From Herbaspirillum sp. Sphag64 (lineage in GTDB: Bacteria > Pseudomonadota > Gammaproteobacteria > Burkholderiales > Burkholderiaceae_D), in the NCBI RefSeq assembly GCF_014192645.1, contig NZ_JACHYE010000003.1, forward strand, positions 1-64,000: DNA of 64,000 bases. Direction: 5' to 3'. Below, in pieces: positions 44,026-49,750 of this stretch. A program made the translations under genes and the position numbers. A model generated the notes under the pieces. The model made no database searches, had not been told where the DNA came from, and worked only from the letters and a program-made list of their open reading frames with translations. Positions within the stretch are counted from its first letter, which is position 1. The number at the start of each line of letters is the position of its first letter.

Positions 44026-44102
44026 CGCGGGGTGGAGCAGTCTGGCAGCTCGTCGGGCTCATAACCCGAAGGTCGTAGGTTCAAATCCTGCCCCCGCAAC
44101 CA
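44026..44102 (+). tRNA. initiator tRNA-fMet (CAT)
   Basis: A 77-base cloverleaf. Acceptor CGCGGGG pairs with CCCCGCA leaving the C1-A72 mismatch, and the anticodon stem TCGGG-CTCATAA-CCCGA has three G-C pairs; both are identity marks of the initiator tRNA. The T loop is TTCAAAT and the CCA end is encoded. A terminator follows at 44111. A truncated integrase begins 85 bases downstream, so this gene is the likely integration target of the island. Confidence 0.95.
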
Positions 44103-44110
44103 AATTGTCT

Positions 44111-44147
44111 AAAACCGTTGATCGCTTATGGCTTTCAGCGGTTTTTT
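44111..44147 (+). terminator. intrinsic terminator of the initiator tRNA gene
   Basis: AAAACCGTTGA and TCAGCGGTTTT form an 11-bp stem with one G-U pair, followed by TTTTTTG. Confidence 0.78.
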
Positions 44148-44186
44148 GCATTTCGGCTGGTGTGCCACTAAGTGAGCCACCTACAC

Positions 44187-44381
44187 ATGCCACAGATCAA
44201 GGCCCCAAGGTTGTATCTCAACCGTTGCGGAGTGTTCTACTTCCGCTTAAAAACCAAAGAAAAAGACCGGAAAGTCAGTTTCCGCACGAAATGCCCGGTG
44301 ACTGCTAACATTGTTGCGTTACAACTTAACGCAGTCATTGAACGGGGTCGGGCAATGAACATAGGGATTAGTGTTTGTTAA
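44187..44381 (+). pseudogene. truncated tyrosine recombinase (integrase), N-terminal remnant
   Basis: The 64-residue reading MPQIKAPRLYLNRCGVFYFR continues with an arm resembling the N-terminal DUF6538-type domain of tRNA-site integrases (RKVSFRTKCPVTANIVALQL). A full integrase has 400-500 residues; here the frame ends after NIGISVC and the next gene starts 50 bp later, so the catalytic domain is gone. Location just 3' of tRNA-fMet and same direction as expected for such an integrase support the call. The homology is judged by eye on a short stretch. Confidence 0.58.
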
Positions 44382-44432
44382 AATTTTTTACCGAGGGCGA
44401 GGACCAAGTAACAGAAAAATTGAGGATAAGAA

Positions 44433-46160: not shown

Positions 46161-48425
46161 ATGCTTAAAAGCATTCAAAAGATCAAAGGACTGGGAGTAT
46201 TCAACGATTACGTCATGCCAGCGGGAACCACCGAATTTGGCGTTAAGAACCTGATTTACGGCTGGAATTATTCCGGGAAAACCACGTTGTCACGGCTGAT
46301 CTCCTTGCTGGAACATAAAAAGCCTGACCCCGATCTACCCAACGTCTCTTTCTCAATCTTGAGTGGTGCGGACGTGATCAATGAGATCAACTTTCAAACC
46401 TCCTCGGTCGTATGCAGGGTCTTCAATTCGGATTTCATCACCAAGAATATCAACTTTGCCGGCAATCCCTTTAAGCCCATTTTGCTGTTAGGTGCAGATG
46501 CAGGAGATGCCCAAAAGAAAATTGACCGATTTCAGGAGTATCAAGAGAACATCTCCGCAAGGGTCGTTAAAAAGAACAAAGCCTTTGCAGACGCAAAAGC
46601 AGCAATGGATCGAGCCAAAACGGATAAAGCCTCTTCCGTAAAGGCTACGATGTCTTTGGTGAAGGCATATGGAGCTTCCCATCTTGATAAAGACATTCAG
46701 ACCATCCGTAATCTCTCGGTCACGGATCATGAATTGCTGCCTGCAAATTATGAGGCCGATTTGAAATTGGCCAGAACGTCTGATCAAGACCAACTCGCTT
46801 CCATTCCGAAATTGTCGTATGCCTTGAATTACGATCAACTCCATAAGAAGGCAGAAACGCTACTTTCAACAAAACTCAACCTAACCAACACCATCGACTA
46901 TCTGTTGGAGCATCTTGCTGTTTCGAATTGGGTGGAGACGGGATTAGACCTGCATGCCGATAAAGCAGAATGTGAGTTTTGCGGAAATACATTGACCGAG
47001 AAGCGAATGCAGGAATTGAGGGATCATTTCTCTCTCGACCTTGCAGATCACAAACACGCCCTCAATACTTTAAGAGAACAGGTGTCGTCTGCGAGAGTTG
47101 TTTACAGCCCCAATAAAGCCTCGGAATTCAATGCTCAATTTCGAGAGCAGTTCACGACCTTGAATGCCACGTTAAAAACGGCGGTCAGTGCTTACAACGC
47201 GGCCCTCGATGTGCTTGATGATAGAGCTAAAAAGAAATTTGATGCCCCAACGGTTCTCGGTATGCTCGCCGCAATTGATCCGAAAATTCAATCCGATTTA
47301 TCGGATTCGATCGACGCCATCAATGTCGTGATTGCCGACAACAACAAGATATCCAATAATTTTTCATCCGAAAAAGAGCAAGCGATTGATCGGTTGAAAA
47401 TGCATTTCGCACAAGCTTTCATCAAAGAAAAGAAACTTCAAGAGTTTGAAGACAAGCAGGCCATGTTAGAGCGGCAGGTTAAACGGTGCATGGGGTATCT
47501 GGCCAATATCGGCGTAGAGATTGAAAAATTACAAGCCACGATCAGTCAGGCCCAGCGTGGCCGAGAAGAGATCAACCTTCTCATTGAGCGATTGCTCGGA
47601 AGCGATAGTGTCCAGATTGTCGTGGCGAAGGTGGCCGATAAAGAGCAGTTTCAACTCATCCGAAAAGGCGGGAAGCCTGCAAACCATTTAAGCGAAGGTG
47701 AAAAGACAGCGATTGCATTCTCGTTCTTTATTACCTCCTTGAAAGAGATCAAGGATTTCAGTCAAGCCATCATTTACATCGACGATCCGATTTCGAGCCT
47801 GGACAGCAATCATATTTTTCAAGTGAATGCGATCATCAAAGAGACATTCTTTTACAAAGACCCGAACGACAAGCAAGCACCGGTCACGACAACGTGCAAA
47901 CAGATTTTTCTGTCCACGCATAATTTCGAGTTCTTTTCATTGCTCAGAGAACTGAAGCCCGATGGGAAGGCATCGAGCCATTACTTGGTTAAAAAGATTT
48001 CGCCATTGTTCTCAACGTTCGGCAACATGCCCAAGTCGATGTATCGCTATTCGTCTGAATACCATTTCCTCTTTGACGTGCTGAATGGATTTCATACAGC
48101 ACCGGCAGAAGATAAGACTGATTTGAAATTGTTGATGCTGCTACCCAACGCGGTTCGACGGTTCGTGGAACTCTATACGTATTCAAAGTATCCCGGCCAG
48201 AAAGACATGACGGTGGATCAGCGGGCGGAAATATTGTTCGGTGGGGAGAAGTCGAAACGGCTGTTGAAGGTGTTTCACTATTTTAGCCATGCTAACAACA
48301 TCGAACGAATGGTGGAGCAAAACGATTTGATGTGTGATATCGAGGGGGCGGTGGATGACCTGATGACGCTACTCAATGAGAAAGACCCGCTCCACATGGA
48401 GGCGTTGAAAGCATCTCTTGCATGA
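46161..48425 (+). CDS. AAA_13-family ATPase, RloC-like anticodon nuclease candidate
   Basis: 754 residues with an SMC/Rad50-like split ATPase. Walker A is GWNYSGKTT (34-42), an odd P-loop; the signature is LSEGEKTAIAF (510-520); Walker B IIYIDDP (537-543); D-loop SSLD; switch histidine STH (585-587). Between the halves (about 120-480) is a long helical region with coiled-coil character, containing a CxxC pair, C271-E-F-C274, placed like the zinc hook of RloC. The C-terminal part has R666-x3-E670 (VRRFVELY) and histidines H706 and H710 (VFHYFSHA), resembling the Arg-Glu-His nuclease triad of PrrC/RloC. So it may be a tRNA-cutting phage-exclusion protein. A plain AAA_13 ATPase without nuclease activity is the alternative. 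Confidence 0.78.
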   Translation: MLKSIQKIKGLGVFNDYVMPAGTTEFGVKNLIYGWNYSGKTTLSRLISLLEHKKPDPDLPNVSFSILSGADVINEINFQTSSVVCRVFNSDFITKNINFAGNPFKPILLLGADAGDAQKKIDRFQEYQENISARVVKKNKAFADAKAAMDRAKTDKASSVKATMSLVKAYGASHLDKDIQTIRNLSVTDHELLPANYEADLKLARTSDQDQLASIPKLSYALNYDQLHKKAETLLSTKLNLTNTIDYLLEHLAVSNWVETGLDLHADKAECEFCGNTLTEKRMQELRDHFSLDLADHKHALNTLREQVSSARVVYSPNKASEFNAQFREQFTTLNATLKTAVSAYNAALDVLDDRAKKKFDAPTVLGMLAAIDPKIQSDLSDSIDAINVVIADNNKISNNFSSEKEQAIDRLKMHFAQAFIKEKKLQEFEDKQAMLERQVKRCMGYLANIGVEIEKLQATISQAQRGREEINLLIERLLGSDSVQIVVAKVADKEQFQLIRKGGKPANHLSEGEKTAIAFSFFITSLKEIKDFSQAIIYIDDPISSLDSNHIFQVNAIIKETFFYKDPNDKQAPVTTTCKQIFLSTHNFEFFSLLRELKPDGKASSHYLVKKISPLFSTFGNMPKSMYRYSSEYHFLFDVLNGFHTAPAEDKTDLKLLMLLPNAVRRFVELYTYSKYPGQKDMTVDQRAEILFGGEKSKRLLKVFHYFSHANNIERMVEQNDLMCDIEGAVDDLMTLLNEKDPLHMEALKASLA

Positions 48426-48468
48426 TCTGCTTTACCGATAATTCACCGTCTAGACTAATGGTTTGCGA

Positions 48469-49585
48469 ATGAATACTAAGAAATGTCAGTTATGCAGGGA
48501 TGAGTTGAATCACTCCAACGATTCAAAGGAGCACATCATCCCCAATGCAATCGGGGGTAAAAAGAAGGTTTCGGGTTTCATTTGCAAGTCGTGTAACAAT
48601 AAGGCCGGCGAGACTTGGGACGCCGAGTTGGCTTCCCAGTTGAACTGGTTTTCCCTATTTTTTTGGAATTGTCAGAGAACGTGGAACTCCGCCTTCCATG
48701 ACGGTAGAAACGAATATTGGGAAACTCATTCTTCACTATGATGGCACGCAGTCATTGACTAAGCCCATCTATGAAGTGACCGAAAATGACGGAATTGGAA
48801 CGCTAAGAATTCAAGCCCGTACCGAAAAAGAAGCCTATCAATTGCTGCGGGGCGCTAAGTCTAAATATCCAAATTTGGATGTTGATGAGGTGATGAAACA
48901 AATGCAGGTGACGGATGACTACACTCCACGAATCGTCAATATGTCGATTGAACTTGGTGGTGAGGAATGTGGTCGTTCGGTGGTGAAATCTTGCCTTGCA
49001 TTAGCCTCTTTCCGGGGAATCGATATTGATCAATGCTCTCCTGCTGACCACTATCTGAATTACGGTGGTTCGGCAAATTTTGGGGGCTACTACGACAGTG
49101 ATTTAGTTTTGAATAGACCGCCTGATAGCATCTTTCATTGCGTTGCTGTTACGGGTAACTCCAAATCCCAAATGCTCCTAGGTTATGTCGAGTATTTCAG
49201 TGTTCAGCGTGTTGTCGTTTGTTTGTCTGATACGTATGAAGGAGATGACTTTGAGTCCATGTACGCCATTGATCCACGTGATGGAAATGAATTGGAGCTG
49301 AAAGTAGACCTTTCATTTTCGAAGGCTGATGTGGCAGCGATATGCGACTACAAAAGAGCCTCACAGGAGGGCATGCACTTTGCGGTGGGGGAAGTTATGC
49401 GGATAGGCTACGCGGCCTCCCTCGAGCGTCAGAAGAATAAAGTGCTAGGAGAAGCCGTTGACTATGGTCTTGCAAATTGCGGGGCAAAGGAAGGGGATAT
49501 TCTCACTGAGGAACATCTCAGAAAATTGTCCCAGTTGATCGCGGAAAAAATGACGCCATACCTTTTGCAAAGAATTAAAAAATAG
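48469..49585 (+). pseudogene. HNH-type endonuclease gene interrupted by a frameshift
   Basis: Two overlapping frames form one gene. Frame one (48469-48741) begins MNTKKCQLCRDEL and carries KEHIIPNAIGG and FICKSCNNKAGETWD, the CxxC, EHIIP and CxxCN marks of an HNH_5-like zinc nuclease domain. It stops being protein-like after NWFSLFF. Removing one T from the T7 run at 48658-48664 joins it to the second frame, giving GIVRERGTPPSMTVETNIGK and then about 290 further residues to 49585. The C-terminal part has no family I can name. The gene may be dead, sequenced with an error, or expressed by slippage. Confidence 0.72.
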
Positions 49586-49629
49586 TACTACAACTACTTT
49601 CATATAACACTGAGGAAAAATTATTGCTG

Positions 49630-49750
49630 TTTCGGGGAGATATCTTCCACCACCTGAAAGATATTGCTCAATAACAGCTAATTTGAATTGTGTTGGGTAT
49701 TTAGCCAATGAAAAACCCCGAAAGTTGATCTCCAACTTTCGGGGGGCAGT
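49630..49750 (-). mobile_element. remnant of an IS3-family element at the island edge
   Basis: On the minus strand ACTGCCCCCCGAAAGTTGGA and the inverted repeat CCCCGAAAGTT/AACTTTCGGGG (49716-49744) match the terminal structure of IS3-family elements. From TTG at 49708 it reads LAKYPTQFKLAVIEQYLSGG, the OrfA N-terminus, and loses similarity after about 25 codons. The element was cut by a deletion or rearrangement. The form is like the IS end at 1-95 but the sequence differs. Confidence 0.68.

Follow-up and report, generated by a model that had tools for sequence, protein, structure and literature searches.

Background

SEFIR and RloC proteins are listed as separate accessory defences, with NAD+ depletion and a translation stop as their modes of action (PMC12322248). 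Here we describe a region of Herbaspirillum sp. Sphag64 in which one gene of each type stands next to the other, followed by the remains of an HNH nuclease gene, behind a tRNA-Met gene; it lies between positions 44026 and 49751 of a 64,000-nucleotide stretch (contig NZ_JACHYE010000003.1, positions 1 to 64,000; hereafter the window). An earlier account made from the DNA alone (the sequence-only reading) had taken this region for a defence island, and had left open whether its three genes were separate modules or one composite system.

Among the closest described systems, bSEFIR is a single-gene anti-phage system. NAD+ depletion upon phage infection has been reported for SEFIR systems (PMC12322248, PMC12774641), and bypass by mutation of the structural proteins of phages is on record (PMC10286901). 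RloC, a zinc-hook ABC-ATPase anticodon nuclease of the HEPN superfamily, has been defined in sequence terms by its ABC-ATPase motifs, a CxxC hook and the array Arg-x3-Glu-x36-52-His, often with Ser before the His (PMC2610378). For other RloCs, linear DNA and ATP are reported to activate cleavage of tRNA at the anticodon (PMC2610378, PMC3874168); published accounts have RloC seldom linked to restriction genes and capable of acting by itself. Two further systems invite comparison, namely PrrC-EcoprrI, in which an anticodon nuclease is held by a type I restriction enzyme, and Septu, which pairs the PtuA ATPase with the HNH protein PtuB. Layered defence by HEPN and restriction-modification (R-M) genes has also been proposed (PMC3710099).

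Results and discussion

We consider the region to be a small defence island, decayed in part and made up of independent modules, that was left by one or more integrations at the 3' side of tRNA-Met, and give this reading a probability of roughly 0.8. Its features are as follows.

44026 to 44102, plus strand: tRNA-Met (CAT anticodon), the probable integration site; a tRNA was found in the same place in 20/20 fetched same-genus sites
44187 to 44378, plus strand: 64-codon open reading frame (ORF), a possible N-terminal fragment of a tyrosine integrase (DUF6538, E 0.0026, below the cut-off)
44433 to 45869, plus strand: SEFIR-domain protein of 478 aa, bSEFIR type (SEFIR PF08357, E 1.3e-14)
46161 to 48425, plus strand: RloC anticodon nuclease, as judged from motifs, of 754 aa (Walker A 34-42; CxxC hook 271-274; R666-x3-E670-x39-H710)
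48469 to 48741, plus strand: HNH_5 domain (E 1e-14, residues 6-58), the 5' part of a frame-broken nuclease gene
48698 to 49585, plus strand: C-terminal part of the same broken HNH gene in another frame, 295 codons, no family match
49678 to 49751, no strand: right-end remnant; it carries a terminator-like stem (49716-49744) and, on the minus strand, what may be the N-terminus of a transposase

Two of the three genes match anti-phage families over nearly their full length, the stretch is AT-rich and sits at a tRNA gene beside a possible integrase fragment, and the genes are missing from all 20 corresponding sites that we fetched. These observations uphold the view of the region as a defence island.

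The SEFIR protein aligns with the PADLOC bSEFIR profile at E 1.8e-108 (residues 1-447 of the protein, positions 35-365 of the 412 in the profile), and over near its full length with phrog_11745, a phage-protein family of unknown function (E 1.8e-133). Both the SEFIR domain and the family-specific C-terminal region expected of a bSEFIR protein are present; its SEFIR/TIR_2 N-terminal domain and long C-terminal region are those of the described system, from which it appears to differ in no essential way. A search of solved structures by sequence matched the SEFIR domain only (5y8e and 5y8f).

The second gene encodes a protein that matches AAA_13 (E 1.6e-124) and, over nearly its whole length, the PADLOC candidate family PDC-S06 (E 4.7e-132). 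Judged by its motifs, it is an RloC in the published sense. In an alignment of 91 sequences, which includes the window and a few identical copies, the Walker A, signature and Walker B residues G34, G39, K40, S511, G513, E514, D541, D542 and D548 are identical throughout (91/91), as are C271 and C274 of a CxxC that lies inside the ATPase insert, between Walker A and the signature. The C-terminal array reads R-x3-E-x39-SH in the window (R666, E670, S709, H710) and is conserved in the alignment, with R in 90/91, E in 81/91 (7 carry Asp), S in 89/91 and H in 89/91. Conservation of Walker A is partly circular, the relatives having been found via N-terminal patterns; the C-terminal triad played no part in choosing them. 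The window protein is 25-57% identical to the 80 relatives kept of 184 and belongs to a clade made up mostly of Burkholderiales and Pseudomonas. No solved structure was matched by sequence at E 0.001.

Elsewhere in the family, the RloC genes of six Pseudomonas loci (L016, L017, L027, L028, L034 and L054; L and G numbers are our handles for loci and genomes) adjoin a recurrent group made up of integrase-like genes and a small gene (annotated TetR in L017), which suggests a mobile recombinase element. The RloC gene of L017 is itself split by an IS30 element.

The base composition of the region sets it apart. A stretch of ~5.3 kb behind the tRNA gene has ~45% GC, with flanks mostly at 54-62%; taken 500 bases at a time, GC is 0.54-0.59 at 40.25-43.5 kb, 0.41-0.47 at ~44.25-50.0 kb and 0.53-0.62 from ~50.25 kb onwards. 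Third-position GC is 0.46-0.55 in the three island genes versus 0.61-0.71 in four upstream genes, and takes intermediate values (0.55-0.60) in three downstream genes. The GC profile and the third-position values thus bear out the earlier statement that the three genes are richer in A/T than their surroundings, and all three do lie on the same strand (SEFIR at 44433-45869, AAA_13 at 46161-48425 and HNH_5 from 48469). The tRNA gene at the left edge is likewise where it had been placed; the label of initiator is that of the sequence-only reading, checked here by the CAT anticodon only.

None of the three genes occurs within ~11 kb behind the tRNA at the 20 same-genus sites. These come from 20 of 24 other genomes of the genus, picked because the tRNA adjoined the upstream gene (G303, G305, G315 and G316 were left out), and one of them, L176, is readable only 0.5 kb past the tRNA.

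Do the three genes belong together?

A composite three-gene system of a SEFIR sensor or effector, an RloC and an HNH nuclease would be in keeping with three contiguous genes of similarly low GC on one strand. Against it, the families were found apart in the neighbourhoods that we sampled, and conserved co-occurrence is lacking there. No HNH or SEFIR relative stood within up to 10 kb of RloC at any of 84 other RloC loci, the flanks being shorter than 10 kb at contig ends. These 84 loci comprise the 80 kept of 184 confirmed in the scan together with L002 and L016-L018, and include duplicates (L002, read with 1.5 kb flanks, equals L035; L016, L027, L028 and L054 have identical RloC sequences). 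RloC adjoined 1/17 other HNH loci, that of G301, in convergent orientation; some of the 17 are near-duplicates (L202/L203, L196/L198) or weak relatives (L190, L200), and G1043 and the plasmid matches that were not fetched are not among them. At the four other SEFIR loci RloC was absent (0/4), as it was from two more loci read by annotation, and neither an RloC-type ATPase nor an HNH gene was annotated within 5-6 kb of five SEFIR relatives carried by plasmids or phage-like plasmids, in gene tables that are incomplete.

Within the genus, own genome included, the three families are found in 2/34 (SEFIR), 4/34 (RloC) and 2/34 (HNH) genomes; the second SEFIR copy is partial and contains a stop, and the other RloCs are 27-28% identical to that of the window. 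The sequence-only reading had itself named genes "almost always apart" as the outcome that would speak against a composite, and this is what the sampled loci show. The 291 bp gap between SEFIR and RloC also argues against it, and a composite that works in this strain is unlikely because the HNH gene is frame-broken. We therefore reject the composite system on co-occurrence (84 RloC, 17 HNH and 4 SEFIR loci) and regard it as highly improbable.

Some observations do weigh against an island of independent modules. The three genes share a strand, and with a gap of just 43 bp co-transcription of RloC and HNH could be conceived. The only other member of the HNH family found in the genus, in G301, also adjoins an RloC, though in convergent orientation and at a different locus, and for the presence of an RloC neighbour in both HNH carriers of the genus we have no explanation beyond the clustering of genes in islands. 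The assignments of the integrase and transposase remnants are weak as well. In G301 (L186, G301:C4), the RloC and HNH proteins are 28% and 34% identical to those of the window and lie in an insertion at a different site. That insertion was seen at the 3' end of what we take to be rarA, with a partial copy of that end seemingly on its other side.

A broken HNH gene

The HNH gene had been counted as one intact gene. It does carry an HNH_5 (PF14279) domain, beginning 43 bp past the RloC stop, but this domain and the C-terminal rest lie in different frames, whereas intact relatives have a single ORF of 381-399 codons. The C-terminal part is 32-34% identical to five plasmid HNH proteins and matches nothing in Pfam, PADLOC, NCBIfam or PHROGs. 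Both parts are joined in one ORF in 4/5 aligned plasmid homologues, in G301 and in the viral-contig homologue L195; the fifth plasmid homologue, L014, has no recognisable HNH part as annotated. We view the gene as a probable pseudogene, and the "three genes" would then be two intact ones and one broken.

The break, read from a single assembly of the species, sits near a T run at ~48.66 kb. Such a run is a typical place for sequencing errors and programmed frameshifts alike, either of which would allow a full-length HNH protein to be made, and the downstream part is still an open frame that aligns with its homologues over most of its length. The unbroken ORFs of the relatives named above argue the other way, and members of the family that are split on three Pseudomonas plasmids (L201, L202, L203) or interrupted by one TAG (G479) fit ordinary decay. 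We consider an error or a programmed frameshift rather unlikely; to go by these sequences, decay in the HNH family is not peculiar to the window.

The family is rare, with 2/300, 3/369, 2/399 and 3/398 genomes in four samples that count our own genome, overlap, and differ in query and threshold. Its C-terminal part found no match among annotated phages at E 0.001; five viral contigs in IMG/VR carry relatives. For neither an intact HNH homologue nor the L023 protein described below did a search of solved structures give a convincing match, and a fold prediction of the intact homologue (six rows) reached a mean pLDDT of 49.0 and a pTM of 0.27.

An ATPase gene followed by an HNH gene also recalls Septu. 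The window ATPase matches PDC-S06 and RloC, however, with no PtuA model among the matches listed, and the HNH part reaches no better than E 0.014 against PtuB, so that a Septu-like pair was rejected.

The slot behind RloC

RloC and the HNH gene could alternatively have formed a two-gene unit, in which a nuclease cuts invading DNA, the ends activate RloC and translation stops, with an exchangeable slot behind RloC whose nuclease has here decayed. We found no description of an RloC followed by an HNH_5 gene in the parts of the RloC literature searched. PrrC-EcoprrI resembles such a unit in concept, both joining an anticodon nuclease with one that acts on DNA; the window RloC differs in having a zinc hook, the PrrC model covers only its residues 509-613 (E 4.2e-13), and no hsd genes occur in the stretch read.

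We read the first co-directional gene behind RloC in 29 close relatives (at least 38% identity), with Pfam runs on the downstream proteins of 16/29 (22/80 loci overall). In L030, L031, L032 and L035 (12270-14504), a protein with Mrr_cat and nSTAND3 domains (PADLOC PDC-S73) follows RloC directly, at 4 bp or overlapping, and in L036 (12176-14437) the two appear as a single ORF, apparently a fusion. Among the adjacent cases only L030 was run against Pfam; L031, L032 and L035 match its protein at 76-92%. L070 has a co-directional HNH_2 gene 66 bp behind RloC. In L023 a protein that we take to be HNH-like, by its motif only, lies 31 bp behind; it matches no family in Pfam, NCBIfam, PADLOC or PHROGs. 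A tree of 34 RloC rows places the window together with L023 and L070 in a clade of ten rows (98/96). Behind RloC, L029 and L033 (at 12270) retain no more than the first 35 and 30 residues of the Mrr protein, as if the slot had been overwritten; the other sequence that follows the remnant in L029 carries a PDC-M14A match. In L055, a distant relative, a homologue of this protein (34%) lies ~2.5 kb away.

The 43 bp spacing, the nuclease-type genes of these relatives and the Mrr remnants all favour a two-gene unit, as does HsdR, which immediately follows RloC in L048, L068, L086 and L095, four distant relatives at 26-32%. Linkage of RloC to HsdR is already known for a minority of RloCs (PMC2610378). 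On the other side, no nuclease-type gene was seen in the slot of 22/29 close relatives (Pfam runs covering 16 of the 29), and the HNH family of the window lacks an RloC neighbour in 16/17 other loci. The slot is also occupied by DUF2130 (L041), Fic (L078), a ResIII/SNF2 helicase (L044), a convergent AbiEii (L019) and ordinary genes. The Mrr cases represent one lineage, the L023 protein has no family match, and defence islands are rich in nucleases, the slot counts being raw numbers. Moreover, Acinetobacter R-M proteins are reported neither to have silenced RloC nor to have mediated its activation by DNA breaks (PMC3874168).

A nuclease partner for RloC is plausible; a two-gene unit at this locus we hold to be doubtful. 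The broader proposal is that this RloC clade consists of "killers" with an exchangeable "cutter" slot (HNH_5, HNH_2 or Mrr-nSTAND3), where DNA ends made by the nuclease would license tRNA cleavage and the window's cutter was lost by the frame break. This can be conceived because RloC is reported to be activated by linear DNA, but we judge it unlikely. We rate both proposals somewhat lower on account of the HsdR cases, which come from distant relatives and represent a type described before.

Edges of the island

Housekeeping genes lie upstream of the island, as had been said of both sides; downstream, the window's RidA and FAD-oxidoreductase genes are absent behind the tRNA in the 20 fetched relatives. 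The 3' side of the tRNA is thus variable and the right edge of the island uncertain. Positions 49853-56951 hold these RidA and FAD-oxidoreductase genes and what is presumably an ABC transporter operon, and may be an older insertion; the three genes measured there are those with intermediate third-position GC. None of the repeats reported places an att-type copy of the tRNA 3' end, in direct orientation, at the far edge, no RNA family besides the tRNA passed gathering thresholds, and promoter and terminator scans gave no more matches than shuffled sequence.

The truncated integrase and the IS3-type remnant of the sequence-only reading have weak family matches. Between the tRNA and the SEFIR gene there is indeed a small ORF, matching only DUF6538, which we take to be an integrase N-terminus, and PHROGs and plasmid searches with it yielded nothing useful. 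At the far edge there is a remnant for which the sole family match is HTH_Tnp_1 at E 0.073.

A relative, G300, shares the left junction with the window up to ~44359, possible integrase fragment included, and on the same side of the tRNA has a piece 82% identical over 74 bp to the right-end remnant, with ~0.8 kb of other DNA between the junctions. This pattern fits repeated exchange of cargo at one site. Pieces similar to the right-end remnant occur on 26 Rhizobiaceae-type plasmid records, the eight shown having no feature listed under them, and the piece may for this reason be mobile in itself.

Conclusions

The bSEFIR protein would probably sense a phage component and degrade NAD+, so that the infected cell stops growing. 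RloC would probably use its Rad50-like ATPase and zinc hook to detect linear, broken DNA, cut tRNA anticodons with a HEPN-type R...E...H site and thereby halt translation. The HNH nuclease behind it, its frame now broken, may formerly have made cuts in DNA. Directly observed here are the genes themselves, the motifs of RloC, the base composition, the lack of the genes at the sites of relatives and the broken HNH frame; that the pieces are expressed, are triggered by phage, are active and serve defence in this strain is what we infer.

As an assembly of modules already known, the locus is an unremarkable case of defence genes clustered beside a tRNA gene, with one member decayed. It is of more interest as a pointer to a cutter slot behind RloC, a protein described as rarely restriction-linked and yet followed just behind by a DNA nuclease in several members of this clade. 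If the pairing of RloC with a nuclease is functional, it would suggest how infection triggers RloC, and the scheme of cutting DNA and then stopping translation would be testable.

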